DNA of 54,712 nt from Oscillospiraceae bacterium (GTDB lineage Bacteria; Bacillota; Clostridia; Oscillospirales; Acutalibacteraceae): NCBI GenBank assembly GCA_902802375.1, contig CADCLS010000011.1, positions 1-54,712 of the forward strand, written 5' to 3'. The notes under the pieces are model-generated. The model was not told the origin of the DNA and made no database searches. It worked only from the letters and a program-made list of their open reading frames with translations. The number at the start of each line of letters is the position of its first letter. Positions within the stretch are counted from its first letter, which is position 1. A program made the translations under genes and the position numbers. Below are positions 5,401 to 54,712 of this stretch, in pieces.

Positions 5401-8400
5401 TCGCTTATGTGTTTTTCAAGCGCGGCAAACACTTCGGATATAATTCTCAACTGATGCTCGTTATAGTTATAAGCTTCGGTATCACCAAGCTCACGGGAGA
5501 GCACCTCGAGCATTTGCGAAATGTTTTCGTCATACATTTGTGTTCGCTCATAGAATAGCTTATCATCGCCGGCATCCTTATAGGTCGCCTCATAAGCATC
5601 TTCACTCTTAAGCGCATCAAACATTTTTTTGATTTCGGTAACCTTATCGGCGGCATTTGTCGCGATTCTGAAAAGACGGTCGTATTTGTCTTTCAGCGCT
5701 TCTCTGACGGTATCGTTTGAGGCGTTCTGTATTTCCTGATTTAGCTTTTCAAGCCTTGCATAATACTTACCGCCGATTTTACTGTCGTCATAATCTATCG
5801 GGTTATCGTAAATAATATCAAGGGCGTCGACAACGGCTCTGATAAACGGCTGAGGAACATAACTGCCTTTTTTCGGGTTTCCAAGTTTTTTAGTGAATTT
5901 ATCCCTGAGTTTCAGAGCCTTTTCCCGATATTCGCGTTTTCTCTTCGATACCGCTTCGTTATATTTGCGTTCACTCTCTTTCCGGCGGTACTCTTCAAAC
6001 TTCTTATCCCCTCTCGCACGCTCTTTTTCGGTTGCCTTCTTTGCCGCTTCGTTTGCCGCCTGTGCTATTTCTCTGTTTCGCGCTCTCGTGCCGGTGTTAT
6101 CGAGTATGTCTTTTATTTCTTTTGCAATATACTCTGCAGCACCGTCTTCATCAAACTCTTCTACTGCATTTTCAAGCGAATTAACTATTCTGTTGAATTC
6201 TTCCGGCATATCTACCGAGTTAGTATCGGCGCTGAAATACTCCGGATAAGCCGCCGCCCACTCTTGCCACATCGAATCAAGGGATATACTGGCATTGGGG
6301 GATATTTTCAGTTTACTGCTCTTTCTGAAATTTGTTAGCGTGCCGTAATGATATAAGATTTCCTTTCGCTGAATATCATCGATATACACCGTAGTATTTC
6401 TTATAAGTTTAAGCGCTTCTTGAGCCTCAGGATATATTTGCGGTTTTATATATCCTGCCAAATCTTTTGATAGCTCGTCTATAAGGGAATCTAACACCGG
6501 AACCTTTACAATTTCACCATCGGAATTATAATCCCATTCTTTTCCGCCTTTATTGTGCTTAGCAACCAACTCGCGAAGCTTCCCTGCCAGCTCTTCCACT
6601 TCAACATTTTTTATTGCAAATTTGTTGATGAGCCGCTTTGCAAACATTGTAGGATTGTATCTTAATTCCTCAAGCCTATCACCGCGGAGGGAAAAGCGGA
6701 TGTCGGGGTTATACGAATTGAACCTTTCTGAAAGCGGTATAATATTGCCGTTATCGTCATAGGTGACCAGGTCGGCAGATTTGATTTGTTCGGGTTCGAA
6801 GACTACATAGTTTTTATCACTCGTATTGTTTTCATAATTAAAAGAGGTATATACAATAGAATCATATCCTTGTGATATTAAGTATTCAGAAAAGCCTTTC
6901 CCGTCCCCTACTACCCTGCTTATTAGTGAGCCCGTTCTCTTGTTCGCATCAACAAAACTTTCGAGACCGGAGAGTTTTTCTTTTCCTATTTTTTCGGCAT
7001 ACTCATTTAAGATTCCTATTTTGTCCATATCCTTAATACTTGTAAATATGAATGGTTTGTTTAATTTTAGATAAACATGATATGTGTTGTTGCCATCTCC
7101 GTATTTATTAGCAACAGCTTTATTGTCTGTAAAATAGAAACCGTCACCCATATTTCCGTAAAGAGTAGCTCCACTCCTAATTTTTGCTTTTTCGAAAGAT
7201 GTAAATCCACCCGATTTTGTCCCATGCCAACCTTCAAATGTATATCCACTTTCTTTTGCCGCTTCATCAACCATTTCCCTTAACTTCGCCTCGTTCTTTT
7301 CGGGATTTTTGGCAAGATTGAGATATTCGCTATCCGTTTCGGAAACTTTTTCTTGACTTTTTTGTGGATTTTCGGATATACTATTAGTGGTAGGGTTTGC
7401 GTCCGACTTTCCGGACCGCCCTACTTTTATTATTGTGCTAATGTCATACAATATTTTTTCGCCACTTTTTGTGTTTGCAATATGTAATGTTGCCTGCCAA
7501 ATAGATTTGTTTTTATCTTGTATGAAAGTCGTCCATTTATCCCAATAATTATTTCCGTTATCGTCAAGCCATCCGTGCGGATATTTTGAAGGTTCGGAAC
7601 TTTCCTGTCTTGCAGTCGCAATCAACTCATCTAAAAGAACAACAGATTCTTGTTTGACAGTATTTTTATTATATTTCGTTGTTAAATCTTTATTTACTGG
7701 AACAATTTTGCCACTTTTGTTTTTGAATTTTTCGTTAGACTTTGCAATTCTAATCTGTATTGGTTTTCCATTCTTGTCAAAAGCCGTAAATACTTTTCCG
7801 CTGATTGCTATTACATATTCTTTTACCTTCTTAATGCGTTCTTTTTCAGATAAATTGCTAAGCAATTCAGAATCAAGGAATACTCCTATACCGTAATCAT
7901 TGCCTTCGCTATCAAAAATATTTTTTATAGACCACTTCACCCCACCGTCTTCGGTGGGTTTTTTTGTTTCTGCGCTTTCATATACATCCTGAAGCTTGCG
8001 TTCGAGGCGTGCAAGGTCGGCTTCAAGCTTTCTTGTGGTTTTATTCCCCTTTATGTTGCTTATAAACCGCTTCACGGCTTCAATAATGTGGTGGAAAAGG
8101 TTTTTATCCTTGTGTGCTATTTCTTCAAGCGCGGAAAGAGAAGTTTCATAGCTCCCCTCAGGTAGCTCATTATCATACTTAAGAGCGGTGGCTATCTCGC
8201 TTCGATACTCTTTACCCTTAAAGAGAACATCAGCAAAGAAATCCGCCGCCGCTTCACGCTTGGCGTCTTCAAGCGTAAACGCTTTTCGGGCTACCGGCAT
8301 AATTCTCTCGTCGGTGGTGTATATCTCATAATATAAATCGAATAACGCTTTAACCGCGCCGGCATTACCGCCTTTATACTCTATGTCGTTTTCTTTAAGT

Positions 8401-29443: not shown

Positions 29444-30232
29444 ATGGGCTATTTGTTATGCATAATTTTTATTTCTTTCTTTGTGTGCTTGCTCAACAAC
29501 TATTGCTCCGACATACCTATGTTATACAATAATAAAAATGGTCACGAATTTAGTATTAACGAGCCGGATGTTAACGACTACATCACAACTAATCAATTAA
29601 AATATTACAAAGACGATTTAAGAAAATTTATTACATATGAAGAACGCTTAGAAAATGCGAAAAGGCTTTGTGACCAAATATCAGAAAATTGGCTTTTCCG
29701 TTGCATTTTCTATATAATCATGTTAAGTTCGCTAAGCTATGCAGTTATAAAAATTATTAAAAACTTGAGTGTATCACTCCCTGTGTTTGTTGTGGTTGCA
29801 ATCGCATTTTTGTCCGCAATAATTCTTATTGTTATTTTATCGGTACTTGCTAAATTAATTTACCGAAAGCACAAGCTTCCAAATTTCGAACGCACGGAAG
29901 ATGAAATAAAAGAAGAGTTTGCAGAACATCTATGCCGAATAGCATATTCAAAGTACTGTGAAGGGAAAACTCCAAAACCTTCGGTTTCCAAATTTGAGTT
30001 AGACTATAAGAATAACGAATCGTATTATCTTTCTATTATATATGAAACAACTCTGGAAGCGGCAGTATGTTTCAAAGCAATAGAATACACCATTAAAAAA
30101 ATCAGAATCCACGATTCATATTTGAATCACATAATAAATTCCTTGCACCGAAGATATTTTGTATCAAAAGTGTATGCTTGGGTGGCTTTTATACTCTATC
30201 TTGCCACCTTCGGTTTACCGAATATCTTATAG
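29444..30232 (+). CDS. Second membrane protein of the lysogeny module
   Basis: A 262-residue protein. One hydrophobic helix at the N-terminus (about 2-18), two in the middle (about 85-145) and one at the end (about 240-260) give the same arrangement as the upstream gene. KHK follows the central helices in both. It is preceded by the duplicated TTTAGGAG leader. Weak sequence likeness suggests a diverged paralogue, but this needs a proper alignment. Function unknown. Confidence 0.6.
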   Translation: MGYLLCIIFISFFVCLLNNYCSDIPMLYNNKNGHEFSINEPDVNDYITTNQLKYYKDDLRKFITYEERLENAKRLCDQISENWLFRCIFYIIMLSSLSYAVIKIIKNLSVSLPVFVVVAIAFLSAIILIVILSVLAKLIYRKHKLPNFERTEDEIKEEFAEHLCRIAYSKYCEGKTPKPSVSKFELDYKNNESYYLSIIYETTLEAAVCFKAIEYTIKKIRIHDSYLNHIINSLHRRYFVSKVYAWVAFILYLATFGLPNIL

Positions 30233-30263
30233 TTTTATTTTAAACACATTAAAAGGTGATACT

Positions 30264-31256
30264 ATGGCAAAAGCACACAAGCTTCCCTCCGGCTCCTGGC
30301 GAGTACAGGCAAAAGCCGCCGGGCAAGTAAAATCTTTCACGGCACCGACCAAAACCGAAGCCGAGCGCCGCGCTGCGTCCTGGCAGCTCTCCGCCGAACG
30401 CTCGGAAATCATACCGGATAAAATGACTTTAGGCGAAGCGATTGATAAGTATATTAAGATTAAAAGCAATGTGCTCTCGCCTTCTACAATTAGGTCTTAT
30501 GAAAACATCAAGCGAAACGCACTTGCGCCAATATCAAATAAGCCGATTGAAAAGCTTGATAATATCACAATACAGACCGTTATGAACGAATACGCCGCTT
30601 CACATTCTCCCAAATCCGTCCGTAATGCATACGGACTATTAACCGCAGTATTAAAAATGTACCGTCCGGGCTTTACCCCGTCGGCACGCCTACCACAAAA
30701 AAAGAAGGTGGATATATACATACCCACCGAAGAAGAAATTAAAACAATATTGAAATTATCAAAAGATACTCCACTTGAAACGCCTCTGAAGCTTGCCATA
30801 TTCGGAGGCCTCCGTGCCGGCGAAATCTGCGCCCTGACTCCAGCAGATATAAAAGACAATACCGTATCAGTAACAAAATCGCTTGTTTTCGGTACCGACG
30901 ATACATGGTATGCAAAAACACCTAAAAGTTATTCAGGAAACAGAACAGTCGTTTTACCCGAAAAACTAAAGTTACAAATTAACAACGACGGCAGAATCAC
31001 TGATTACAACCCTCATTCACTTTCTCAGGCTTATCATAAATTTTTGAAGGTCAACAGCTTACCGCTTCACCGTTTTCACGATCTACGACACTTTTATATA
31101 TCAACGCTCTTTGATATAGGCGTTCCGGAAAAGTATATAATAGCCCAGGTTGGTCATAGCTCGTCATCCATAACTAAGCGCGTATACGACCATATATCAG
31201 CCGGCAGGCAAAACGATTACACAAATAAAATCTCCGGTTATTTTTCCACATTCTAA
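30264..31256 (+). CDS. int: Tyrosine recombinase (phage integrase)
   Basis: A 330-residue integrase. The N-terminal AP2-like arm-binding part contains KLPSGSWRVQ, followed by a SAM-like core-binding domain (SPSTIRSYENIKRNAL). The catalytic residues are visible: Arg in GGLRAGEICAL, His-x-x-Arg in HRFHDLRHFY, His in QVGHSS and Tyr in KRVYDHIS. The ATG at 30264 follows AAAAGGTGAT; the frame open upstream overlaps the membrane gene. It lies beside the attachment site, as expected for site-specific integration into a tRNA 3' end. Confidence 0.95.
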   Translation: MAKAHKLPSGSWRVQAKAAGQVKSFTAPTKTEAERRAASWQLSAERSEIIPDKMTLGEAIDKYIKIKSNVLSPSTIRSYENIKRNALAPISNKPIEKLDNITIQTVMNEYAASHSPKSVRNAYGLLTAVLKMYRPGFTPSARLPQKKKVDIYIPTEEEIKTILKLSKDTPLETPLKLAIFGGLRAGEICALTPADIKDNTVSVTKSLVFGTDDTWYAKTPKSYSGNRTVVLPEKLKLQINNDGRITDYNPHSLSQAYHKFLKVNSLPLHRFHDLRHFYISTLFDIGVPEKYIIAQVGHSSSSITKRVYDHISAGRQNDYTNKISGYFSTF

Positions 31257-42546: not shown

Positions 42547-43353
42547 TCAAAGTTTATAAACTCTTTTTGCGTTTTCAGAAAAAATCTTTTTATATTCTTC
42601 ATCCGAAAAACCGAGAGATAAAAGTATACTCATTTCGTTTTGCGGAGAATGTAACGGATAATCGGTGCCGAAAAGCACTCTATGAGCGCCGTATCGCCTT
42701 ATTATTTCGGCAGAAATCTTAGGTTCGATATAAGAAAGACTTGATGAACAGTCAACAACCAAATTAGGAATATCGAAAAGCTCTTTTGAAGCCTCTTCCC
42801 AAATTGACCAACCGCCAAAATGTGCGCCCACAACCGTAAGACCGTTATATATCTTCAGAATGGGTATTAACCTATTTGGATTGGAAAAATCGTAGCGGTA
42901 ATCGCCGGTGTGCATAAGGATTGGCATATTATCCCTCTCACAAAGCTCGTATATCTTAAGACAACGATAATCGTCAATCTTAAAGCCTTGAATATCAGGA
43001 TGAAGCTTTACACCGTGAAGCCCTAAAGATTTCAGATGCTCAAAGTCTGCGACAATATCGTCAGACTCAGGGTGCATTGTACCAAGGCCTATTAGTGTGT
43101 CGGGATGCTCGCCTACCTCGCGCGCTATAAACTCGTTTATTTTTCGCACCTGCGCTTTGGTCGTCGCTACCGACTGCACAATAAATTTATCAATACCCGC
43201 TTTTTTACCGTTCTCGGTTAAGTCTGCTATTGTGCCTTTTCCAAAGGGCATTTCGCCGTAAAAATCACCTGTTGCCTTTGCGGCTTTTTCGGCAATTTGT
43301 TCGGGATATACATGGCAATGCGCATCAATTACATAAAACTTATTATTTATCAT
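42547..43353 (-). CDS. Amidohydrolase-2 family metal-dependent hydrolase
   Basis: A 268-residue TIM-barrel protein. The metal motif DAHCHVYP is at 10-17, followed by GLGTMHPES, GLHGVKLHPD, PILMHTGD, TVVGAHFGG and FGTDYPLHSP, as in ACMSD-like amidohydrolases. It is the last gene of the leucine T-box operon and overlaps the upstream AMP-ligase fusion by one base. The substrate is unknown; it may hydrolyse or decarboxylate an intermediate. Confidence 0.82.
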   Translation of the reverse strand: MINNKFYVIDAHCHVYPEQIAEKAAKATGDFYGEMPFGKGTIADLTENGKKAGIDKFIVQSVATTKAQVRKINEFIAREVGEHPDTLIGLGTMHPESDDIVADFEHLKSLGLHGVKLHPDIQGFKIDDYRCLKIYELCERDNMPILMHTGDYRYDFSNPNRLIPILKIYNGLTVVGAHFGGWSIWEEASKELFDIPNLVVDCSSSLSYIEPKISAEIIRRYGAHRVLFGTDYPLHSPQNEMSILLSLGFSDEEYKKIFSENAKRVYKL

Positions 43354-45866
43354 TATGCCGTCACCGTACTGTTTGCCTTTTCAAGATGCAGTTTCTTAAT
43401 AGCGTCCTCGCGCATTTTGTATTTAAGTATCTTCCCTGCTACATTCATAGGAAATTCTTTTACAAAATCAACATAGCGCGGCACCTTATGCTTTGCCATA
43501 TGAGAAAGCACAAACTGTTTCAATTCGTCTTCAGTCATACTCTCGCCGTCTTTAAGAATTACCGCCGCGAATATTTCTTCACCGTACTGCTCATCAGGCA
43601 CGCCTATTACCTGAACATCCTTAACCTTTTCGTGAGTATAAATGAACTCTTCTATCTCTTTTGGATAAATATTTTCACCACCGCGGATAATCATATCCTT
43701 AAGTCTTCCGGTAATTCTGAAATTACCCTCAGGCGTTCTGCAGGCAAGGTCTCCTGTATGAAGCCAACCGTCCTTATCAATGGCAGAAGCAGTAGCTTTA
43801 GGCATCTTATAATAGCCTTTCATTATATTATATCCGCGCGCTACAAACTCACCGGTCACTTCATCCGGGCACTCTTCACCCGTTTCGGGGTCTACTATTT
43901 TACATTCAATTTCAGGAAGCGGTCCGCCAACGGTACCAACACGCACTTCCAAAGAATCGTCCGTAGAACTCATAGTACATCCCGGCGATGCCTCAGTCTG
44001 CCCGTAAACAATCGTGATTTCCTTCATATTCATCTTATCAACAACATCACGCATAACCGAAATCGGGCAAGGACTTCCTGCCATTATTCCCGTTCGCATA
44101 TATGAAAAATCCGTCTTTTTGAAATCGGGATGTTCAAGTAATGCTATAAACATCGTAGGCACGCCGTGAAAAGCAGTTATATGCTCGGAATTTATACAGC
44201 TGAGCGCCGGCTTCGGCGAGAAATACGGAAGCGGACAAAGTGTCACACCGTGAGTCATAGATGCGGTCATAGCAAGCACCATACCGAAGCAATGGAACAT
44301 TGGTACTTGTATCATCATACGGTCAGCGGTGGAAAGATCCATTCTATCCCCTATGCATTTGCCGTTATTCACAACATTATAATGTGTAAGCATTACGCCC
44401 TTCGGAAAACCTGTTGTGCCCGAAGTATACTGCATATTGCATACATCGTCTTTTTCTACCGCTTGAGCCATTTTATATACAGTCTCAACCGGCACAGAAT
44501 CCGCAAGATTTATAGCATCTTCCCATTTAAGGCAGCCTTTTTGCTCGAAACCGACAGTAATTACATTTCTTAAAAACGGCAGTCTACGGCTATAAAGCGG
44601 CTCACTCGGTTTTTTGTTTTCAAGTTCCGGGCAAAGCTCGGCAATAATCTTTGAATAATCGGAATCTTTTGAGCCGTCTATCATAATAAGCGTGTGTGTG
44701 TCGGACTGCTTAAACAGATACTCCGCCTCATGTATCTTATATGCGGTATTAACTGTTACAAGGACAGCTCCGATTTTTGTAGCCGCCCAGAAAGCTATAT
44801 ACCACTGCGGAACATTGCTTGCCCAAACCGCAACATGTGTGCCTTTTTTTACGCCAAGCGCTACTAATGAGCGTGCAAAGGTATCAACATCATCGCGGAA
44901 TTCGCTATATGTTCTCGTGTAATCAAGAGTTGTATACTTAAAAGCATACTGGTCAGGAAATTCTTCAACCATACGGTCAAGCACCTGTGGGAAAGTTTCT
45001 TCGATAAGAAGCTCCTTTTTCCAAACAAAATTACCCGTATGCGCTTTGTTAAAATACAAATTACTTTTTGCCTTTGCAGTATCGCCGAACTGGCGCATAA
45101 AGTTGATGAAATGCGAAAAAATTATTTCCATATCGTCAAGAGCGCTAAGCCACTGAGGGTCCCATTCAAGAGAGATAAAACCGTCATAATTTATTGACTT
45201 CAGCGCCGACATAACATCAGAAATAGGCAATTTGCCCTCGCCTATAAGGCAGTGATTAAGCTCACCGTTTTGAACTATGCCGTCACAAATATGAACATGC
45301 TTTACATAAATGCCAAGATTTTTAATAGTTGATTCAGGTAATTCTTCCGCAAAAAAGCAAGTGGCGGCCACATTCCAAAGTGCCGCAACGCTATCAGTAG
45401 CAAAACAGTTTAAGAAATTACAGAGCTTTTCAGTATCAGCGAATATGCCGCAGGTTTCAATTAAAAGCGTTACCTTGCCGGATTTCGCAAATGGCAAAAC
45501 CTCATCAATTACACTTTTGACTGCGCTGTCGTCTCCATTACCGTCAGTTTTTATACGAACATAAGGTATGCGAAGAGATGAAGCTATGGTTATACAGTTT
45601 TTGATTTCTTTAACGCTGTTGTCAAAATCACCCTTATCGCCCATTCTGCAAATGGCGTCAACGCAAGGGATTTTGAGTTTAATTTCCATAAGACGCCTTG
45701 CGGTTGCGGCAGATTTATAATCATAAAAAGCGCCGCTTTTATCTGTAAAGAGTGGACCGTGAGTGTTATGAAGCTCTATGCCGTCAAATTTCAGCTCTTT
45801 GGCAACAGCTATCATATCCTCAAAGCTCTCGTTATGCCAACCCTTGCTTGAAAAAGCAAACCTCAT
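43353..45866 (-). CDS. TIM-barrel isomerase-like domain fused to acyl-CoA synthetase
   Basis: An 837-residue protein. Residues 1-270 form an AP-endonuclease-2/sugar isomerase TIM barrel (KFDGIELHNTHGPLF, then YVKHVHICDGIV and GFISLEWDP). Residues about 285-835 form a full AMP-forming acyl-CoA ligase: MQYTSGTTGFPKGVMLTH near 477-494, VYGQTEASPG, GWLHTGDL, GRLKDMIIRGGENIYPKEIE and NVAGKILKYKMRE. All ligase motifs are intact. It follows the synthase-like gene by 3 nt. Its acyl substrate is unknown; a branched-chain acid fits the operon. Confidence 0.9.
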   Translation of the reverse strand: MRFAFSSKGWHNESFEDMIAVAKELKFDGIELHNTHGPLFTDKSGAFYDYKSAATARRLMEIKLKIPCVDAICRMGDKGDFDNSVKEIKNCITIASSLRIPYVRIKTDGNGDDSAVKSVIDEVLPFAKSGKVTLLIETCGIFADTEKLCNFLNCFATDSVAALWNVAATCFFAEELPESTIKNLGIYVKHVHICDGIVQNGELNHCLIGEGKLPISDVMSALKSINYDGFISLEWDPQWLSALDDMEIIFSHFINFMRQFGDTAKAKSNLYFNKAHTGNFVWKKELLIEETFPQVLDRMVEEFPDQYAFKYTTLDYTRTYSEFRDDVDTFARSLVALGVKKGTHVAVWASNVPQWYIAFWAATKIGAVLVTVNTAYKIHEAEYLFKQSDTHTLIMIDGSKDSDYSKIIAELCPELENKKPSEPLYSRRLPFLRNVITVGFEQKGCLKWEDAINLADSVPVETVYKMAQAVEKDDVCNMQYTSGTTGFPKGVMLTHYNVVNNGKCIGDRMDLSTADRMMIQVPMFHCFGMVLAMTASMTHGVTLCPLPYFSPKPALSCINSEHITAFHGVPTMFIALLEHPDFKKTDFSYMRTGIMAGSPCPISVMRDVVDKMNMKEITIVYGQTEASPGCTMSSTDDSLEVRVGTVGGPLPEIECKIVDPETGEECPDEVTGEFVARGYNIMKGYYKMPKATASAIDKDGWLHTGDLACRTPEGNFRITGRLKDMIIRGGENIYPKEIEEFIYTHEKVKDVQVIGVPDEQYGEEIFAAVILKDGESMTEDELKQFVLSHMAKHKVPRYVDFVKEFPMNVAGKILKYKMREDAIKKLHLEKANSTVTA

Positions 45867-45869
45867 TTT

Positions 45870-47255
45870 TTACGCCTCCTCGTACAAAATCTTGTTGAGC
45901 GCACTTATATAAGCGCGAATACTCGCACCGATAATATCGGTAGAAAGACCTTTTCCCGAATACGATTTTCCGTTTGAGCGAAGTTTTACAATGGCACTTC
46001 CCATAGCTTCGTGACCCTCAGTTATCGCCTGTATCTCAAAATCGTCGAGTTCAAAATGCCTGCCGGTTATCTGCTCGATTGTGCGGAAAGCCGCGTCTAT
46101 CGGGCCGTCGCCGACAGAAATTCCGGTTACAGTAACGCCGTCCTTCGTCATATTTATCTGTGCAGACGAGGTCATTATATTGCCGGACTGAATAGAATAC
46201 TGCTCAAGCGTATATGTAGGCGGCACCTGGAGTGCAGTAGAGGCAATTATTGCTTCCATTTCCTTTACAGATACACTCTTTTTTGCTGCAATGCGCTTAA
46301 ATTCATTATATACCTTACTGATATCGTCCTCAGATAAATCATATCCGAGCTTAAGCACTGCGGCACTTACTGCTTCGATATCATCGTTGCTGTCAAGCAG
46401 AAAATCGCCATTGTCGCCGTCTTCTGATTTCTCACCGTAATTATCTCTGCCACCGATTATCCATTCTATGCGTGATATAATGCGGCGCGATGAAGTAAAA
46501 TCAATATCAGTTGAAATAGAAGTATGAAATTTGCAATTACGGAATATTTCAATAGCAGTTTTCAGCTCAGTAATACCGCATCCAACACCGGTCTTTACAA
46601 GGTCGGCGCCACACTTTACCACGGTAAACGATGATGCCGCCGCCATACCCGATATATCCGAACAACATATACCCCATTTTATTTCATCAACTAAACCGGA
46701 AAGGGACTTGATTTCCGCAAGAAACTCGGCCATTTCATCAGGAAAGAAAATACCCTCTTTATCGCAGAGCGTAACTGTTTTTGCACCGTTTAAGACCGCC
46801 GATTTAATAATCTCGGCAAGCGTATTCTTATCTGCTCTTGTGGCGTCAAGCGCGCAAAATTCAACATCTTCGCACTCGTTTGCCGCGATACTTATAAGTT
46901 CACCTGCAAACTTTACCATAGCAGGACCCTTTTTATGAAAACCGTATTCCATGCCCACATCGGATGCCGGAAGAGAAATCCTTATTCGACCCTTTTCTGC
47001 ACTTGCCAACGCTTTTTTCGCATTAGTTATCTGTTCGGGCGTACTGCCACCGTCAACCGAAATTATGCTTGATTTCACGAATGAGGAAATTGTTTTAATC
47101 AGTAAAACATCCTTTGTTTCATTAACAACTGCCGGCAACTCAATTATATCAACATTGAGTTTTTCAAGCTGTCTTGCAATTTCTATACTTTCATTAAAAC
47201 CTGAAACTGCCGGATTCAGATGAAGTGTAGTATCTGCAACAATTACCTTTTTCAT
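45870..47255 (-). CDS. 2-isopropylmalate synthase homologue lacking catalytic motifs
   Basis: A 461-residue protein. The N-terminal ~280 residues align with the DRE-TIM barrel of LeuA, and the C-terminal ~130 form the LeuA regulatory dimer domain (GDGPIDAAFRTIEQITGRHF, then STDIIGASIRAYISALNKI). The usual DTTLRDGEQ is DTTLHLNPA, and the metal-binding HCHNDLG is replaced by ICCSDIS. The loop NGIGERAGN reads VGCGITELK. So catalytic Arg, the metal Asp and both His are lost. The T-box leader upstream has a leucine-type specifier. It may be a leucine sensor or a partner protein, or it may have a new activity. Unlikely to make isopropylmalate. Confidence 0.85.
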   Translation of the reverse strand: MKKVIVADTTLHLNPAVSGFNESIEIARQLEKLNVDIIELPAVVNETKDVLLIKTISSFVKSSIISVDGGSTPEQITNAKKALASAEKGRIRISLPASDVGMEYGFHKKGPAMVKFAGELISIAANECEDVEFCALDATRADKNTLAEIIKSAVLNGAKTVTLCDKEGIFFPDEMAEFLAEIKSLSGLVDEIKWGICCSDISGMAAASSFTVVKCGADLVKTGVGCGITELKTAIEIFRNCKFHTSISTDIDFTSSRRIISRIEWIIGGRDNYGEKSEDGDNGDFLLDSNDDIEAVSAAVLKLGYDLSEDDISKVYNEFKRIAAKKSVSVKEMEAIIASTALQVPPTYTLEQYSIQSGNIMTSSAQINMTKDGVTVTGISVGDGPIDAAFRTIEQITGRHFELDDFEIQAITEGHEAMGSAIVKLRSNGKSYSGKGLSTDIIGASIRAYISALNKILYEEA

Positions 47256-47275
47256 AAAATTACCTCACTATAAAA

Positions 47276-47535
47276 CAAAAATAGTCCCCGAAGCCTTTAG
47301 GCTTCGGGGACGAATTAAATTCGCGGTACCACCCCGATTGCAGGAAAAACTGCCACTCGGAAGGCTCAAATAAGCCTTTTGCTTTGATAACGGAGCATGC
47401 CGTAGCCTCTTACTTTTTTCAGAAGCTCTGCTCAGGAATGAGACTTTTCTGCATTTTTGCTATCGGCTTTCACCGCACGCCGACTCTCTGAAAGCAAAAC
47501 TCACAAAAAATAGTTCCTTCATCGCATTTGAACAA
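47276..47535 (-). promoter_or_regulatory. T-box riboswitch, leucine-type
   Basis: The leader contains GGTGGTACCGCG, the tRNA-acceptor-binding bulge, near 47322-47336. A strong terminator hairpin (47284-47311, GTCCCCGAAGCCT and complement) is followed by TATTTTTG. In stem I, after the distal AGAGAG/GGTGAAA features, CTC at 47440-47442 is followed by A and then the TTCC that closes the base stem with GGAA. I read CTC (leucine) as the specifier. The leader precedes the synthase-like gene and is not separated by a terminator from ilvE. Confidence 0.88.
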
Positions 47536-47540
47536 TTGGT

Positions 47541-47569
47541 AGTATATCACATACTTTTATGATTTGCAA
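47541..47569 (-). promoter_or_regulatory. Promoter of the leucine T-box operon
   Basis: TTGCAA (47564-47569), 17-bp spacer, TATACT (47541-47546), just downstream of the ilvE stop codon. Confidence 0.7.
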
Positions 47570-47577
47570 GTATTTTT

Positions 47578-48642
47578 TTAATCAATCGGATAGGTCCAAC
47601 CGTATTTATCCTCGGTTTTACCCCATTGAATGCCGGTAAGGGTATCATAAAGGTTTTGTGTGACATCGCCTATCTTACCTTCGTTTATGATAAACTTTTT
47701 GCCTTTATAGTTGAGTTCGCCTATCGGAGACACAACCGCGGCAGTGCCGCAACCCCAGGCTTCTTCAAGCTTGCCGGATTCGAGCGCCTCCTCAAGCTCG
47801 TCAACGCTGAGTTTTCTCTCCTCAACCTTAAATCCCTTATCTTTCAGCACTTCAATGCATGACTTACGCGTGATACCCGGAAGAATTGAGCCGAGAAGTG
47901 CCGGCGTAACGATAACACCGTCAATTTTGAACATTACATTCATCGCGCCTACTTCTTCGATATACTTGCGCTCTACGCCGTCAAGCCACAAAACCTGTGA
48001 ATATCCCTTATCCTCAGCGCGTTTGCCTGCACGGTTACTCGCGGCATAATTACCTCCGCACTTAGCCTCGCCTGTACCGCCGCGAACCGCACGAACATCT
48101 TCAGACTCAATCATAATGCTTACCGGATTGATACCCTCTTTATAGTAACTGCCTACCGGAGAAGCAATTATAACATATGTGGCATTTTTAACAGAATGAA
48201 CACCCAAAGACTCATCGTTTCCGAACATAAACGGACGAAGATAAAGTGAGGTGCCGGGGGCGGACGGTGTCCAGTCCTTTTCAGTTTCAACAAACTTTGT
48301 GAGCGCTTCAAGAGCGTCATCCTCAGGTATCTGCGGCAAGCACATACGCTCAGCAGACCTGTTCATACGGCGGATATTCTCCATAGGTCTGAACAGTTGA
48401 ACCTTGCCGTCAGCACGACGGTAAGCCTTAAGACCTTCAAATATTTCCGAGCCGTAATGCAAAACGGTAGAAGCCGGATGAATTGAAAGCCTCTGGAAAG
48501 GTACTATACGCGCATCCTTCCAGCCTTCACCCTCAACATAATCCATAATAAACATATGGTCCGTAAAGTATTTACCGAAGCCTAAAACAGAGCTATCCGG
48601 CTTTACTTTCGGTGTATCAGTAAGTTTAACAGTGATATTCAT
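47578..48642 (-). CDS. ilvE: Branched-chain amino acid aminotransferase
   Basis: Interconverts branched-chain 2-oxo acids and valine, leucine or isoleucine with glutamate. A 354-residue fold-type IV PLP enzyme of the long bacterial type: GSEIFEGLKAYR, LYLRPFMFGND, the PLP lysine in GEAKCGGNYAAS (about residue 194), YIEEVGAMNVMF and the C-terminal EAWGCGTAAVVSPIG. It is the last gene of the valine T-box operon, 12 nt after the oxidoreductase gamma subunit. Confidence 0.97.
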   Translation of the reverse strand: MNITVKLTDTPKVKPDSSVLGFGKYFTDHMFIMDYVEGEGWKDARIVPFQRLSIHPASTVLHYGSEIFEGLKAYRRADGKVQLFRPMENIRRMNRSAERMCLPQIPEDDALEALTKFVETEKDWTPSAPGTSLYLRPFMFGNDESLGVHSVKNATYVIIASPVGSYYKEGINPVSIMIESEDVRAVRGGTGEAKCGGNYAASNRAGKRAEDKGYSQVLWLDGVERKYIEEVGAMNVMFKIDGVIVTPALLGSILPGITRKSCIEVLKDKGFKVEERKLSVDELEEALESGKLEEAWGCGTAAVVSPIGELNYKGKKFIINEGKIGDVTQNLYDTLTGIQWGKTEDKYGWTYPID

Positions 48643-48654
48643 AAAACTGCCTCC

Positions 48655-49188
48655 TTAATTCTCAAAGCCGATTTTAATAGCTTTGAGGTTAATATCAAGC
48701 ATATCGGCATGTTTGGCGGAAATAACCTTTTTAAGAGCCGCCATAACGGAATCCTCGTTATACTCGTTCATTTCTTTAAGTATTTTGCCGACAATTATCA
48801 TATTAGCAAGCTTGCCTACACCGTTTTCATCAGCAAGCTTTGTCGCAGGTATATAGAAAACCTTAACATCGTCTCTCTTTACCTTACGCTCTATAAGTGA
48901 TGAATCCGCAAAGATAACACCACCGGGTACCACGCTGTCCTCATACCTGTCAAGTGACGGTAAATTCATAGCGATAAGTACATCAGGGCTTGAGACTATC
49001 GGCGAGCCTACCGGCTCATCACCTATAATAACGCTGCAGCTTGCAGTGCCTCCGCGCATTTCAGGTCCGTAAGACGGAAGCCAGCTTACCTGCTTATCTT
49101 CGATAAGGCCTTTATATGCGGCAAATTTACCTGCGAAAAGTATGCCCTGACCGCCAAAACCTGCAAAAAGATATTGTGTGGTTTTCAT
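48655..49188 (-). CDS. 2-oxoacid:ferredoxin oxidoreductase, gamma subunit
   Basis: A 177-residue protein: [18 protein letters not shown] at the start, [20 protein letters not shown], then [18 protein letters not shown], the standard POR gamma features. It overlaps the beta gene by 4 nt (ATGA type). With alpha, beta and the ferredoxin subunit it makes a four-part VOR/KOR-type enzyme. Confidence 0.95.
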
Positions 49189-49940
49189 ACTAATCTCTCT
49201 CCTTTCGCAGACCTGTCTTTATAAACGCCGAGTGGATAATAGGGTATCATTTTTTCGTCAATCCATTTAAGAGCGTTTTGAGGAGTAAGTCCCCAGTTTG
49301 TAGGACAACTTGAAATAACCTCAATAAGCGAAAAGCCTTTGCCCTCGATTTGATTTTGGAAAGCCTTTTTAATAGCCTTCTTTGCGGCGTTAATATTCTT
49401 TATGTTATTAACAGCAACGCGCTCAATGTACTCGGCGCCGTCAAGCTCAGAGAGCATTTCACATACCTTTACAGGAAATCCGCAAAGCTTTACATCTCTG
49501 CCGTAAGGTGAAGTCTGTGTAACCTGACCGGGAAGAGAAGTCGGCGCCATTTGACCGCCGGTCATACCGTAAATCGCATTGTTAATGAAAATTACGGTAA
49601 TATTCTCATTTCTTGCAGCGGCGTGAACGGTTTCCGCCATACCGATAGATGCGAGGTCTCCGTCACCCTGATATGTAAATACTATCTTACTGGGGTCTGC
49701 GCGTTTAACACCGGTGGCAACCGCCGGTGCTCTGCCGTGAGCCGCCTCAATCATATCGCAGTTAAAATAATCATAAGCCATAACAGAGCAACCAACCGGT
49801 GCAATACCTATGGTCTTACCCTCAATATCAAATTCATCTATTGCCTCAGCAACAAGACGGTGAACTATACCGTGTGTGCAACCGGGACAATAATGAAGCG
49901 GAACATCCGCCAGTGATTTAGGTTTGTCAAATACTACCAT
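49185..49940 (-). CDS. 2-oxoacid:ferredoxin oxidoreductase, beta (TPP) subunit
   Basis: A 251-residue thiamine-diphosphate subunit. YCPGCTHGIVHRLVAEA and GIAPVGCSVMAYDYF bind the cofactor region. The TPP/Mg motif is TYQGDGDLASIG, continued by INNAIYGMTGGQMAPTSLPG. Its start overlaps the alpha stop. Substrate specificity for 2-oxoisovalerate versus 2-oxoglutarate cannot be read with confidence; the operon with ilvE favours branched-chain acids. Confidence 0.95.
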   Translation of the reverse strand: MVVFDKPKSLADVPLHYCPGCTHGIVHRLVAEAIDEFDIEGKTIGIAPVGCSVMAYDYFNCDMIEAAHGRAPAVATGVKRADPSKIVFTYQGDGDLASIGMAETVHAAARNENITVIFINNAIYGMTGGQMAPTSLPGQVTQTSPYGRDVKLCGFPVKVCEMLSELDGAEYIERVAVNNIKNINAAKKAIKKAFQNQIEGKGFSLIEVISSCPTNWGLTPQNALKWIDEKMIPYYPLGVYKDRSAKGERLV

Positions 49941-51007
49941 TACTTATTGCCTCCTTTTGCGGCTTCTTCAATATCTGCTAAAACCTGCTCAGGAAGCGGT
50001 ATCATACCGCCTACACGGTTGCAAAGCTTATAATTTGCCTTGCATTCGGTAGCAAGCTTAACATCCTCAATCATCTGACCCATTGAAAGCTCAACGCTTA
50101 TAAATGTATGTACTTTCTCAGCCGCCTTCTTAAATACATCCTTCGGGAACGGCCAGAGGGTTATAGGTCTAATCATACCTACTTTAATGCCCTTTGCTCT
50201 TGCGGCATTAATAGCGTTTTTTGAAACACGCGCGGCAATACCGAATGCGGCAACGCATATCTCAGCATCGTCCATAAGATATTCCTCAAACATAACTTCA
50301 TTTTTCTCAACTTCTTTGTAGCGCTCATAACGCTCAAAGTTTACCTGCTCTAACTGCTCAGGCTTAAGATAAAGAGAATTGATAATGTTATGCTCGCGCT
50401 TCTTATCTGTACCTGTTGTCGCCCACGGCTTTTCAGGCGCAGGATTAACCTTAAGCGATTCAAGGTCAACAGGCTCCATCATTTGACCCATAGTACCATC
50501 GGCTAAAATCATCGAAGTCATACGGTATTTATCGGCAGTATCGAACGCTTTTACAGTCAGTGCCGCCATTTCCTGAACGGAAGCCGGTGCGTAAACTATC
50601 ATATGATAGTCTCCGTGACCGCCGCCGCGAGTTGCTTGAAAATAATCTGACTGCGAAGGCTGAATACCACCGAGTCCAGGTCCTCCTCTTTGAACATTTA
50701 CAACAAATGCCGGAAGGTCTGCACCTGCAAGATATGAAAGTCCCTCACTTTTCAGTGAAATACCGGGGCTTGACGAAGATGTCATAACCCTTTTACCTGC
50801 GCTTGATACACCGTAAACCATATTAATTGCGGCAATTTCACTTTCCGCCTGTAAAAATGTGCCTCCGATTTTAGGCATTTTTTTAGCCATATATGCGGCA
50901 ACTTCGGTCTGCGGAGTAATCGGATAACCGAAATAGTGACGACAGCCTGCAATTATAGCCGCCTCAGCTATAGCTTCGTTGCCTTTCATAAGTACCTTAT
51001 CAGCCAT
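49940..51007 (-). CDS. 2-oxoacid:ferredoxin oxidoreductase, alpha subunit (VorB-like)
   Basis: A 355-residue subunit: GNEAIAEAAIIAGCRHYFG, GYPITPQTEVAAYMA, TFLQAESEIAAINMVYG, VMTSSSSPGISLKSEGLSYL and QRGGPGLGGIQPSQSDYFQA are typical of VorB/KorA. With beta, gamma and ferredoxin it catalyses 2-oxoacid + CoA + oxidised ferredoxin to acyl-CoA + CO2, and the reverse reductive carboxylation when ferredoxin is reduced. Ten nt separate it from the ferredoxin gene. Confidence 0.95.
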   Translation of the reverse strand: MADKVLMKGNEAIAEAAIIAGCRHYFGYPITPQTEVAAYMAKKMPKIGGTFLQAESEIAAINMVYGVSSAGKRVMTSSSSPGISLKSEGLSYLAGADLPAFVVNVQRGGPGLGGIQPSQSDYFQATRGGGHGDYHMIVYAPASVQEMAALTVKAFDTADKYRMTSMILADGTMGQMMEPVDLESLKVNPAPEKPWATTGTDKKREHNIINSLYLKPEQLEQVNFERYERYKEVEKNEVMFEEYLMDDAEICVAAFGIAARVSKNAINAARAKGIKVGMIRPITLWPFPKDVFKKAAEKVHTFISVELSMGQMIEDVKLATECKANYKLCNRVGGMIPLPEQVLADIEEAAKGGNK

Positions 51008-51016
51008 TTAAGTTCC

Positions 51017-51223
51017 CTACCTTTCTACCTTAATGATACAATCGGGACACATAGTAGCGCAAAAAGCGCAGCCGATACAGTCGTCGGGATTTACCGCCTC
51101 GACCGGATGATGCCCCTTCTTGTTGATTTTTTCTGACGACAGTGCAAGCACTTTCTTCGGGCATACATTTACGCATAACCCACAGCCCTTGCAAAAGTCA
51201 GTTTTGAATGTAAGCTTTGCCAT
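51017..51223 (-). CDS. Two-[4Fe-4S] ferredoxin, delta subunit of the oxidoreductase
   Basis: 68 residues from ATG 51223, with AAGGAG at good spacing; a GTG three codons earlier is the alternative. Two CxxCxxCxxxCP clusters are visible: [17 protein letters not shown] and [18 protein letters not shown]. It passes electrons between the alpha-beta-gamma enzyme and the cell ferredoxin pool. Confidence 0.95.
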
Positions 51224-51235
51224 ATTCAACACTCC

Positions 51236-51901
51236 TTAAATTGTAAGTGAATTTTGCAGTTCTATATAAAATAAATTATCTGTTTTTCCGACAAGCTCAG
51301 CCTTAAGACGCTTATTGGCGGCAGTCGCAATAATCGGTATATTCATAAGCTTCGCCACATCTGCGGCATAACCGAAAGAGTTTATTATATCTTTTGCAGT
51401 AGTATCAGAGCCGAGATTTGAATTGTTTATTATTCCGGTAAAGTTTATACCGCCGGCATATTCAATTTCTCTAAGAACTTCTACGGTAGACGCCGTATCG
51501 CGCGTGAGAGGTCTGTACATATTGATAACGGCTATCATACTGTAATTGTTTTCTTTAACTATCGCAGGGGCAAGTCTTCCGAGAGCTAATGCGCCCCTGT
51601 CATCACCGCCGATATCAAGCACAAAACTCTGTGATTTATTATCTGTTATCGCGTACATTTCATCCGGCAGTGCCGGTATATCAAGATTAGTGCCGGCATA
51701 ATCTGAGCAAATCAGCTTAATTCCGCGATTGTTTAACTCCTCGATACTATCCTTTGTTCTGAAATACGGATTTACTATATCAAGGTCAGCGATAGCAACG
51801 CTTTTACCCTGTTCCTTCTGCTCGTACGCCATATTAAGCGCAACATTAGTCTTGCCGCTTCCGTAATGACCGCAAACAATGGTTATTCGTTTATAGTCCA
51901 T
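51236..51901 (-). CDS. P-loop ATPase (ParA/MinD-like fold)
   Basis: A 221-residue protein. Walker A is VCGHYGSGKTNVALNMA at the N-terminus, ADLDIVNPYFRTKD follows, and VLDIGGDDRGALALGR matches the switch region of SIMIBI-class ATPases. It lies between the AMP-ligase and the oxidoreductase genes and is probably coupled to them. It might help assemble or activate the enzyme complex; this is inferred from context. Confidence 0.8.
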   Translation of the reverse strand: MDYKRITIVCGHYGSGKTNVALNMAYEQKEQGKSVAIADLDIVNPYFRTKDSIEELNNRGIKLICSDYAGTNLDIPALPDEMYAITDNKSQSFVLDIGGDDRGALALGRLAPAIVKENNYSMIAVINMYRPLTRDTASTVEVLREIEYAGGINFTGIINNSNLGSDTTAKDIINSFGYAADVAKLMNIPIIATAANKRLKAELVGKTDNLFYIELQNSLTI

Positions 51902-51915
51902 ATCACATCACCGTT

Positions 51916-52155
51916 TTACAACTCATTACGCTTAATTTTACCGCTTATAGTCTTAGGAAGCTCATCGCGGAACTCAACAATGCGTGGGTACTTATAAGGC
52001 GCAGTCTTAGACTTGACATAATTCTGTATTTCTTTCTTTAGCTCGTCAGTACCTTGAGTACCCTTAACAAGTACAATGCTCGCTTTTACAACCTGACCGC
52101 GTATCGGGTCCGGTGCCGCCGACACACCGCATTCCAAAACATATGGCAGTTCCAT
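51916..52155 (-). pseudogene. Detached C-terminus of the acyl-CoA ligase
   Basis: Encodes [20 protein letters not shown] onward to a stop, the C-terminal lobe of an AMP-forming acyl-CoA ligase, with the A10 lysine in [14 protein letters not shown]. The frame continues upstream to 52183 as GPFEIESVI, which is the normal continuation of the upstream gene. It is therefore the 3' end of 52172-54109, separated by a deletion of about 34 codons with a frame change. It is unlikely to be a gene by itself. Confidence 0.75.
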
Positions 52156-52183
52156 AATAACGCTTTCTATCTCAAACGGTCCT
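51916..52183. repeat. 268-bp direct repeat, copy 1 (ligase 3' end)
   Basis: Repeats 54445-54712 at a constant offset of 2529 bp without gaps, apart from a few substitutions. The match ends exactly at the broken ligase junction. Confidence 0.9.
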
Positions 52184-54109
52184 TAGGCCGTCTTTCCAAG
52201 TCTCGCGTGTTTTTTCCTCATCACCGAAATAACAAACCGCAAGACCGCACGGAAGACCGTTTTTAATATTTATCACTATCTCGCCGGTCTCACCGGTAGG
52301 AACACTGTTTCCGTCCGGGTCAACTATATCTACATCATAAATCGGTGCCGGCTTACCCATTGAACCGATTTTATGCGGCGCGCCTCTGAGGTTACCTATT
52401 ATCATTGTGCTCTCTGTCTGACCGAAGCCTTCAAGTATACTAAGACCTGTCGCCTTCTTAAATTGGCGGTAAACCTCCGGGTTAAGAGCTTCGCCTGCGG
52501 TAGTCATATGCTTAATTGACGACAAATCGTATTTTGAAATATCCTGCTTTACCATCATACGAAGCATTGTAGGCGGTGCGCAAAAAGTAGTGATATTATA
52601 CTTTTTGAACATAGGAAGTATATCCGCCGCGTCAAAGCGGTCAAAATCATAAACAAATGTTGCCGCCTCACATAACCACTGACCGTAGAGCTTACCCCAC
52701 ATCGCCTTTGCCCACCCGGTATCGGAAATAGTAAAGTGCAAACCGTCCGGGTCAACATTATGCCAATACTTTGCAGTATGGAAGTGACCAAGCGGATATT
52801 TATGCGTATGCGTAGCAATTTTCGGATAGCCGCTTGTACCCGAAGTAAAGTACATTAGCATTAAATCGTCCCCACACGGTGAATCCTCGGTGCGTTCAAA
52901 GTGAGAACGGTAAACTTCATATTCAGCGTTGAAATCACGCCAGCCCTCACGGCTGCCGTTTACCATTAACTTATACTCAAGCGTCGGACATTTCGCCGCC
53001 GCAATATCAACTTGATGTGCCGTGTCGCCGTCAGCCGTGCAAACAATAGCTTTTATGCCTGCCGCCTTAAAACGGTACTCAAAATCATGCTCCTGAAGCT
53101 GATTTGTGGCCGGTATCGCAATAGCGCCGAGTTTATTAAGTGCCAACATACAGAACCAGAACTGATAATGCCTTTTGAGAACAAGCATTACCTTGTCGCC
53201 TCTTTTAATACCAAGCGACTTAAAGTAATTTGCACACCGTGCAGACGCCTTTTTCATATCACCGAATGTAAACCTGCGTTCTTCTTTATCCTTTGAAATA
53301 TAAAGCATTGCAAGTTTATCAGGTTGTGTTGTTCCTAATTCATCAACTATATCAAAAGCAAAATTGAATTTTTCGGTGTTTTTGAACTTAATTGAAGTTG
53401 GCGTGCCGTTCTCGTTCTTTTCCACATCTATAAACTTATGATAAATTCTCTGTTTTGTATCGAACTTCACGGGCGCCGCGGCAGTAAGCTCATTAGCACC
53501 TGAAAGCTCAGGTATTGGGTCGCCTGTTGGATTTAATACAATAGCATAAAAATAGCAATCCTCACCGTTTACGGCTATCATACCGTGAGGTGTTGAGCTA
53601 TCATAATAAATTGTATCCCCGGCGCTTAAAATCTCTGTATGATTACCAACCTGAACTTTTAGGTGACCGGATATTACAATATCACATTCCTGACCCTTAT
53701 GAGTTGTAAGCTCAATAGCTTTTGTCTGCGCCTCTTCGCTGTAAACGCTCTTAACATAAAGCGGTTCGGCAATTCTTTTTCTGAAAGCAGGCGCCAAATT
53801 ATAATAGGTCATACCATGGGCATTATCAATGCGCTGACCGGCACCACGGCGTGTTAATGTATATGAACGGAGAGTCGGCGAATGTCCCTCAATTATATCA
53901 GTAACATCAACCCCGAAAGCATTTGCACAACGGTAAATAAACGCAAAGTTCAAATCTGTTTTGCCGTTTTCCGCCTCTATGTATTCGTTTACAGAAACAT
54001 CGGTTTTTTCTGACATTTCCTCAACGCTTAAACCGATTATCTCACGCAACTCTTTAATTCTTGCAGCCATTTCATGAATTTTATAATCAAGGCCGGTCAT
54101 TTTTTCCAT
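52172..54109 (-). CDS. XRE-cupin-acyl-CoA synthetase fusion, interrupted near the C-terminus
   Basis: A 645-residue open frame. Residues 15-70 form an XRE helix-turn-helix ([20 protein letters not shown]). Residues about 120-200 form a cupin sensor ([34 protein letters not shown]). Residues about 280-640 are an AMP-forming acyl-CoA ligase with [17 protein letters not shown] near 420 and [10 protein letters not shown] near 563. The frame then ends at KDGLRTV instead of continuing through the hinge motif (GD, GRxDDxI), which is missing. A strong AGGAGG site precedes the ATG. The join of a regulator with a CoA ligase is unusual. The break may be real or an assembly error. Confidence 0.85.
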
Positions 54110-54129
54110 TTTCTACCCCTCCTGTGGGA

Positions 54130-54402
54130 CAAAATCAAGAAACTCGTCCCAAAGCTAAAATACTTTGAGACGAGTAAAAACATACCCGCGGTACCACTCA
54201 AATTGCGAAATTTCGCCACTCTTAAGGTCTGACAACCTCTATGCCTTTACGCAGCAATCACGGGAAGGTTCTACTAATCATAATCTGACTTTCTTCCTTC
54301 CGGCTGGGAAGTTACAACACAAGGTTTCGCTTACAGACTTGCACCAACCGCCTGTTCTCTTAAAGCAAAATTCCAAGCGCCCTCTTCGTCATCGCCTTTG
54401 AC
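54130..54402 (-). promoter_or_regulatory. T-box riboswitch, valine-type
   Basis: The acceptor-binding sequence GTGGTACCGCGG is near 54187-54198. The terminator stem ACTCGTC...GACGAGT (54142-54175) is followed by TTTCTTGATTTT. In stem I, TTTTGC pairs with GCGAAA and ACAGGC with GTCTGT. The base stem GAAG/CTTC is preceded on the 3' side by GTA plus A, so GTA (54313-54315, valine) is the likely specifier. It controls the ligase fusion and probably the whole oxidoreductase-ilvE operon. Confidence 0.85.
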
Positions 54403-54408
54403 CATAGC

Positions 54409-54437
54409 ATTTTAGCACACATATTTTATTTTGTCAA
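54409..54437 (-). promoter_or_regulatory. Promoter of the valine T-box operon
   Basis: TTGACA (54432-54437), 17-bp spacer, TAAAAT (54409-54414), directly after the end of the upstream ligase copy. Confidence 0.85.
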
Positions 54438-54444
54438 GAGGAAA

Positions 54445-54712
54445 TCAAAGCTTATTACGCTGAATTTTACCGCTTATAGTCTTAGGAAGCTCATCGCGGA
54501 ACTCAACAATGCGTGGGTACTTATAAGGCGCAGTCTTAGACTTGACATAATTTTGTATTTCTTTCTTTAGCTCGTCAGTTCCTTCAGTACCCTTAACAAG
54601 TACAATGCTCGCCTTTACAACCTGACCGCGTATCGGGTCCGGTGCCGCCGACACACCGCATTCCAAAACATATGGCAGTTCCATAATAACGCTTTCTATC
54701 TCAAACGGTCCT
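54445..54712 (-). CDS. Acyl-CoA synthetase C-terminus, partial (window edge)
   Basis: The frame enters from the window edge as [15 protein letters not shown] and ends RNKL. It differs from the 51916-52183 copy by only three residues. It would be the 3' end of a second acyl-CoA ligase gene upstream of the valine T-box, if the assembly is right. The window stops at the exact base where the other copy is broken. Confidence 0.75.

Follow-up and report, generated by a model that had tools for sequence, protein, structure and literature searches.

The window analysed here is a stretch of 54,712 nucleotides that makes up the complete contig C11 of a 1.68 Mb Oscillospiraceae genome (99.86% complete, 3.29% contamination), and its minus strand carries two operons headed by T-box leaders. 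We think it likely that the locus supplies all three branched-chain amino acids by reductive carboxylation of acids taken up from the gut: isoleucine from 2-methylbutyrate, valine from isobutyrate and leucine from isovalerate. Read from right to left along the minus strand we find the 3′ end of a ligase gene (ligase B), a T-box, ligase A, a ParA-type ATPase and a ferredoxin. These are followed by VorB, the beta and gamma subunits of a 2-oxoacid:ferredoxin oxidoreductase, ilvE, a second T-box, a degenerate LeuA that we call pseudo-LeuA, a ligase fused to a TIM barrel, and an amidohydrolase. A first-pass annotation of the window had described both gene runs, with a GTA-type T-box heading an acyl-CoA ligase, the ATPase, the ferredoxin, three oxidoreductase subunits and ilvE, and all of these are present.

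In the route we propose, uncharged tRNA-Ile, tRNA-Val or tRNA-Leu would prevent termination at the matching T-box. Thus tRNA-Ile would raise the level of ligase B, acting on 2-methylbutyrate, tRNA-Val that of ligase A, acting on isobutyrate, and tRNA-Leu that of the TIM-barrel ligase, acting on isovalerate. The acyl-CoA would be carboxylated by the VOR-type ferredoxin oxidoreductase in reverse, using CO2 and reduced ferredoxin, and the resulting 2-oxo acid would be transaminated by IlvE. The single oxidoreductase and single transaminase of the Val unit would serve all three arms. Pseudo-LeuA would bind leucine and regulate the TIM-barrel ligase, giving feedback on the leucine arm. Salvage of branched acids into amino acids had already been suggested for this locus, and the suggestion gains support from specifier codons that match the predicted products and from Val and Ile ligases that lie near enzymes for 2-methylbutyrate and isobutyrate.

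The T-box of the Val unit (54163..54401, minus strand) matches RF00230 with 82.2 bits, under the gathering score of 93, but with an E-value of 1.8e-18 when the genome was searched and of 1e-16 for the locus; its specifier is GTA at 54315-54313. That of the Leu unit (47303..47531, minus strand) scores 124.7 bits against the same gathering score, with the specifier CTC at 47442-47440, and confirms the earlier description of a CTC-type T-box before a synthase-like gene, a ligase and an amidohydrolase. The picture of two operons holds for these units and overlooks an isoleucine arm, whose T-box lies on contig C12 of the same genome (C12:1994-2237, minus strand; 88.1 bits, under the gathering score, E <= 1e-16) and has the specifier ATC. 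This third leader precedes a ligase like MbcS, and each branched-chain amino acid therefore has both a T-box and a ligase. As read from the sequence, isoleucine, valine and leucine each have a T-box of their own, and each unit has an AMP-forming acyl-CoA ligase. The specifier column was calibrated with five other T-boxes of the genome, before genes named by NCBIfam, and all five were read correctly (pheS TTC, trpB-like TGG, thrS ACC, asnS AAC and ileS ATC).

We extended the reading of codons to relatives. The sample comprised the best 80 loci kept from a scan of genome contigs with the pseudo-LeuA alignment (the 80-locus set), 19 stretches from 18 relatives of the same genus, the window and C12, and each ligase gene was labelled A or B according to which of this genome's two proteins it matched better in BLAST. 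We counted 118 leaders standing before pseudo-LeuA, ligase A or ligase B, representing 72 distinct Leu, 24 Val and 19 Ile leaders, fewer than counted because two contigs occur in both the 80-locus and genus sets. Specifiers were read by alignment, which succeeded for 117 of the 118. The codon is for leucine in all 74 leaders before pseudo-LeuA (69 CTC, 5 CTG) and for valine in all 25 before ligase A (22 GTA, 3 GTC), and it is ATC in each of the 18 readable leaders out of 19 before ligase B. All three kinds occur together in eleven loci. Thus in these sequences the codon tracks the ligase across relatives. A strict-anchor regular expression had been dropped: with it, 67 of 121 leaders could not be read or were ambiguous, and a few of the codons it returned were odd. 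Three of the 121 leaders lie upstream of reading frames labelled ParA (in loci L064, L070 and L136) and are excluded from the counts. Those of L064 and L070 have the specifier CTC and head an entire gene run; that of L136 was read as TGG, could not be aligned with the T-box leaders, and is probably a motif that arose by chance.

The gene order ties the leucine unit to the rest of the pathway. Pseudo-LeuA is paired with the TIM-barrel ligase in 79 of the 80 loci, the eightieth ending at a contig edge, and the gap between them is no more than 60 bp in 74 of the 79. In eight loci no T-box separates pseudo-LeuA from ilvE or VorG, which lies 15-36 bp upstream of it. In L064 and L070 one CTC T-box heads the ATPase, ferredoxin, VorB, beta, gamma, ilvE, pseudo-LeuA, TIM-barrel ligase and amidohydrolase in a single tight run. 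This close placement, in two cases under one Leu T-box, links the leucine unit with the oxidoreductase and the transaminase.

The ligase of this unit (43353..45866, minus strand) had been noted before as an acyl-CoA ligase, and so it is; its N-terminal TIM barrel, of the AP_endonuc_2 family, had gone unnoticed. The AMP-forming domain has intact motifs, with TSGTTGFPKG in every one of the 89 aligned rows; the lysine of AGK is present in 84 of them, and five have a gap there. Its nearest family is PRK12583, a subfamily other than that of ligases A and B, and its PDB neighbors are fatty-acyl/feruloyl, malonyl and 4-coumarate ligases. Within the barrel a Glu is kept in 81 of the 89 rows, an Asp in 50 or Asn in 33, a His in 83 and a second Glu in 51. 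These residues are part of a pattern taken as the metal site of this fold, and the barrel may be a working isomerase. The last gene of the unit encodes an accessory protein of the amidohydrolase-2 family (42547..43353, minus strand), with a homolog in 35 of the 80 loci.

These features leave some room for a leucine unit unrelated to isovalerate, in which pseudo-LeuA, the TIM barrel and the amidohydrolase would do other leucine-linked chemistry. No characterized isovaleryl-CoA ligase stands among the nearest relatives of the TIM-barrel ligase, part of the metal-site pattern survives in the barrel, and the amidohydrolase has no assigned role. We nevertheless consider this unlikely, since barrel and ligase form one protein in which the ligase motifs are preserved, and the unit stands directly behind ilvE or VorG in the eight loci described above, two of them under a single Leu T-box.

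Pseudo-LeuA (45870..47255, minus strand) combines a barrel like that of 2-isopropylmalate synthase (IPMS), lacking the catalytic residues, with a LeuA_dimer regulatory domain (PF08502, 110.7 bits). At 461 aa it is shorter than three canonical LeuA proteins (498-520 aa). We aligned 97 homologs, from the 80-locus set plus 17 from the genus set and the window, with two contigs counted twice, and examined the catalytic motifs TLRDGEQ, HxHND, GERAGN and AHxxGIH, as they stand in the three canonical relatives. The Arg of TLRDGEQ is kept in 21 of the 97 and the Asp in 4; the first His of HxH is kept in none and the second in 2, and neither the Glu of GERAGN nor the His of AHxxGIH is kept in any. Overall, 70 homologs keep none of the six residues, 27 keep one and none keeps more, and neither the Arg and Asp together nor both His residues together, as 2-isopropylmalate synthase would require, occur in any of the 97. 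The GDGP motif of the regulatory domain is retained, with Gly in 97 of 97 and Asp in 94. The structure model has a pLDDT of 86.5 and a pTM of 0.60, and its PDB neighbors are methylthioalkylmalate synthase, LeuA (including the leucine-bound 3fig) and homocitrate synthases. In this model the barrel alone superimposes on 3eeg with a root-mean-square deviation of 1.7 Å over 274 columns, and full-length alignments are poor (11-21 Å).

The sequences thus suggest that pseudo-LeuA is probably not a synthase. The gene had earlier been called synthase-like; it is indeed related to IPMS, and the activity that the name implies is unlikely to have survived the loss of the catalytic residues. A homocitrate-like or citramalate-like synthase was set aside on the same ground. 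In the least certain part of our proposal, pseudo-LeuA could bind leucine and regulate the TIM-barrel ligase as its partner, exerting feedback on the leucine arm, an idea we put forward tentatively, at rather less than an even chance.

The Val and Ile units have ligases of a different kind. Ligase A (52172..54109, minus strand, an open frame) has helix-turn-helix (HTH), cupin and AMP-binding domains, with MbcS as its best family. The first-pass annotation had correctly placed a ligase here, missing the fusion and the broken frame; HTH, cupin and ligase form one protein, and its frame ends early, at 52172, with the C-terminal part in a different frame (51916..52200, minus strand). About 32 codons are missing in comparison with full-length relatives, through a deletion near 52190. 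The ligase 3′ ends at 51914-52200 and 54445-54712, the latter reaching the contig end, share a 262-base repeat that is 98% identical. An assembly fault is likely, because the deletion sits exactly where the repeat shared with ligase B begins, although the break may be genuine. An intact ortholog of ligase A in locus L059 has 762 aa and is 92% identical.

Ligase B, of the same HTH-cupin-MbcS-like architecture, is divided between two contigs. Its C-terminal 88 codons (54445..54711, minus strand) form an open frame, GPFEIES..., cut by the end of the window, and the remainder lies on C12 at about 1-1955 (minus strand), where the frame ends ...SSGYRIG at the first base of that contig. The minus strand of C12 carries clpX, the T-box and ligase B, and its first base abuts the end of the window. 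We rejected the C12 ligase as an unrelated gene, since the contig ends join in one codon frame and the order is unbroken in the same-genus genome G012 (L059). There ligase B, ligase A, ATPase, ferredoxin, VOR, ilvE, T-box and pseudo-LeuA run without interruption, encoding proteins 83-97% identical to those of the window, with 69% for a pseudo-LeuA fragment.

For the intact A and B orthologs the best NCBIfam family is MbcS (NF047394), and the best PDB match is 3etc, with 632 and 634 bits. MbcS has a Km below 10 μM for 2-methylbutyrate and isobutyrate and above 500 μM for isovalerate, according to PMC10026030, and 3ETC is Macs of Methanosarcina acetivorans, which prefers 2-methylbutyrate according to PMC10455477. 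These preferences are therefore consistent with ligases A and B for valine and isoleucine and another ligase for leucine; an MbcS-like pair for two arms and a different ligase for the third fits the predicted scheme. In a tree of 61 ligases one branch parts A from B in 200 of 200 bootstrap trees, with a branch support of 69/100. This clean split arises partly by construction, because the labels came from BLAST similarity; the codon reading does not depend on it. Four loci (L096, L098, L109 and L112) have only the Ile-type HTH-cupin ligase B, directly heading the VOR genes, with no ligase A there, and thus one ligase may serve two acids in these.

In four others (L105, L107, L117 and L118) a separate open reading frame of some 182 aa encodes the HTH-cupin part, and the ligase next to it is unfused. 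Ligases A and B therefore seem to be fusions of a regulator with the enzyme it belongs to.

A relationship to MbcS also raises the possibility that branched acids are activated mainly as FabH primers for branched membrane lipids, as by MbcS in Staphylococcus aureus, for which a role in lipid priming is described in PMC10026030. We regard this as improbable, somewhat more so than an unrelated leucine unit. The Val unit includes VOR and ilvE, ilvE or VorG directly precedes pseudo-LeuA in the eight relatives, and T-boxes specific for amino acids are better suited to amino acid supply. The acyl-CoAs may be shared between the lipid and amino acid routes.

The remaining enzymes of the Val unit form a compact group. 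VorB, the alpha-like subunit (49940..51007, minus strand), matches NF005507 with 543 bits against a cut-off of 399. Adjacent to it are the beta (thiamine pyrophosphate) subunit (49185..49940), the gamma subunit (48655..49188) and a two-cluster, delta-like ferredoxin (51017..51223), all on the minus strand. IlvE (47578..48642, minus strand) is a type II branched-chain amino acid aminotransferase by TIGR01123 (411 bits, cut-off 250) and PRK13357 (489 bits, cut-off 307). Within the 80-locus set the order ParA-ferredoxin-VorB-beta-gamma occurs in 35 of the 36 loci that hold both ParA and VorB, and VOR or ilvE is present in 49 of the 80 as far as the flanks allow. The CbiA/ParA-type ATPase (51236..51901, minus strand) adjoins the ferredoxin gene in relatives; in this position beside the VOR ferredoxin it may have a role in Fe-S loading or activation.

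A complete de novo pathway would have spoken against salvage, and a search of the genome found no ilvB, ilvC, ilvD, leuB or leuC, with the LeuA-like protein degenerate. For ilvB the best match, inside an IorA gene, has 21.9 bits where the cut-off is 538; for ilvC it has 21 bits, level with the Pfam cut-off (20.6), while true ilvC genes reach 247-269; ilvD gave no match. In place of leuC and leuB, with leuD not included in the search, the genome has one aconitase gene and one Iso_dh gene (228 bits, compared with 447-480 for those like leuB), and no canonical leuA was found in it. The aconitase and Iso_dh genes adjoin each other and an HMGL-family gene at C2:209278, and we take the three to be a putative set leading from citrate to oxoglutarate. 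The third HMGL protein of the genome is an oxaloacetate decarboxylase subunit.

Among the 18 same-genus relatives searched, true ilvC and ilvD occur in only two, G009 and G010, of which G010 (89% complete) has no pseudo-LeuA locus. We also compared 147 genomes of the order, each at least 90% complete and including this one. Pseudo-LeuA is found in 26 of the 147, from 11 families, one partial. An ilvD gene is present in 5 of these 26 and in 75 of the 121 without pseudo-LeuA (Fisher p = 7.5e-5, uncorrected for kinship). Pseudo-LeuA and ilvD avoid each other among these genomes.

Taken together with the structure of pseudo-LeuA, these losses suggest a broader picture that we hold as possible and somewhat more doubtful than not. 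De novo synthesis would have been lost and the leucine synthase kept as a non-catalytic sensor, whose former allosteric domain would bind leucine and which would throttle a TIM-barrel isovaleryl-CoA ligase. Counting the HTH-cupin domains fused to the ligases of the Val and Ile units, every arm would in that case have two controls, its T-box and a sensing protein or domain.

Least probable of the alternatives is an oxidative, Stickland-like degradation, in which IlvE and VOR would make acyl-CoA from branched amino acids and the ligases would run backwards to the acids: both enzymes are reversible and act catabolically in other Clostridia, but T-boxes activate genes when an amino acid is scarce and here the codons match, AMP-forming ligases consume ATP and favor activation, and we found no de novo route for these amino acids in the genome.

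A number of observations weigh against synthesis from branched acids as we have drawn it, a scheme whose substrates, direction and regulation are all inferred from sequence. The family of the oxidoreductase leaves the direction undecided, NF005507 being a subfamily model. Ligase A is frame-broken in the present assembly, and the MbcS matches of the intact A and B orthologs (442 and 435 bits) fall far under the family cut-off of 850 bits, outside the family by that measure. The isovalerate role of the TIM-barrel ligase would follow from its T-box, from gene order and by exclusion. No T-box motif lies within 520 nt of pseudo-LeuA in 21 of the 80 loci; eight of these are right behind ilvE or VorG, two have the contig start too near, and 11 are unexplained. 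The HMGL protein at C2:209278 is of unproven function, its best match being homocitrate synthase (152 of 463 bits), with IPMS matches of no more than 148 bits. G009 carries both a pseudo-LeuA locus and true ilvC and ilvD, and the five pseudo-LeuA genomes with an ilvD-family gene point the same way. Finally, 46 of the 121 genomes without pseudo-LeuA lack ilvD too, and its loss therefore needs no such locus.

Sites resembling promoters precede the Val unit (TTGACA-17-TAAAAT, 54409..54437, minus strand) and the Leu unit (TTGCAA-17-TATACT, 47541..47569, minus strand). Both are sigma-70-like with TG before the second hexamer, and are matches to consensus; over the whole region such sites number 27, with 24.7 +/- 4.9 in shuffled sequences, no clear excess. 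Hairpins like intrinsic terminators lie at 54142..54175 in the Val leader and 47284..47311 in the Leu leader (both minus strand). Terminator hairpins are found downstream of all three leaders, with z from -3.3 to -4.8, and terminator-like sites over the region are in weak excess (16, with 11.6 +/- 3.3 in shuffles). Folded by itself, the antiterminator stretch of the Leu leader does not stand out (z = -1.65, with 13 of 200 shuffles equally good).

Elsewhere in the genome a second cluster (L146 = C1:104000-116000, at 2961-9847) encodes a solute symporter, an acyl-CoA ligase, IorA, IorB and a PaaK-like phenylacetate-CoA ligase, with no Rfam match such as a T-box in the cluster. It may be an aromatic counterpart, converting arylacetates to aromatic amino acids, or it may be catabolic. 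Within the window, 1293-27000 and 30159-31256 form a prophage-like region with terminase, ParB-like and Rep-like proteins and an integrase gene nearby. One of its proteins, of 2845 aa, has an ADP-ribosyltransferase domain of polyvalent proteins.

These results provide a candidate gene set and control logic for the use of branched volatile acids (isoacids) in many uncultured gut Clostridia, and they caution against assuming auxotrophy in the gut wherever a genome lacks ilv and leu genes. Pseudo-LeuA clearly illustrates how an old biosynthetic enzyme can be retained after its active site is gone. The question can now be addressed gene by gene, through the pairing of ligase with acid and the codon switch.

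Ruminal bacteria were reported in the 1960s and 1970s to convert isoacids to amino acids, in work by Allison, Bryant, Robinson and Peel that includes Allison (1962, 1966), Robinson and Allison (1969) and Allison and Peel (1971), as cited in PMC7356843. Rumen synthesis of leucine, valine and isoleucine from isovalerate, isobutyrate and 2-methylbutyrate is known, as PMC7356843 states. The route proposed here has the same three pairs of precursor and product and the same kind of habitat, a ruminant host being named in 44 of the 80 record titles of the 80-locus set; it differs in providing candidate genes, codon-matched T-box control and pseudo-LeuA. In the open-licence PMC literature we found no paper linking T-boxes to these ligases or describing pseudo-LeuA, which does not prove that there is none. 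As far as that literature was searched, the gene set, the T-box control with one codon for each acid, and pseudo-LeuA are new.

The closest characterized relatives found for the A and B ligase domains are MbcS of S. aureus and Macs (PDB 3ETC). Ligases A and B differ in their fusion to an N-terminal HTH and cupin, in an MbcS score about half of the cut-off, and in having two forms, one linked to valine and one to isoleucine. Pseudo-LeuA shares the barrel and LeuA_dimer domain of LeuA, whereas it lacks the catalytic residues, is shorter, and occurs in a genome where leuB and leuC were not found. T-boxes for branched-chain amino acids usually control ilv and leu genes or synthetases. The leaders described here resemble them in matching RF00230 with a specifier, a T-box sequence and a terminator-like hairpin, but have acyl-CoA ligases and a ferredoxin oxidoreductase behind them in place of those genes.

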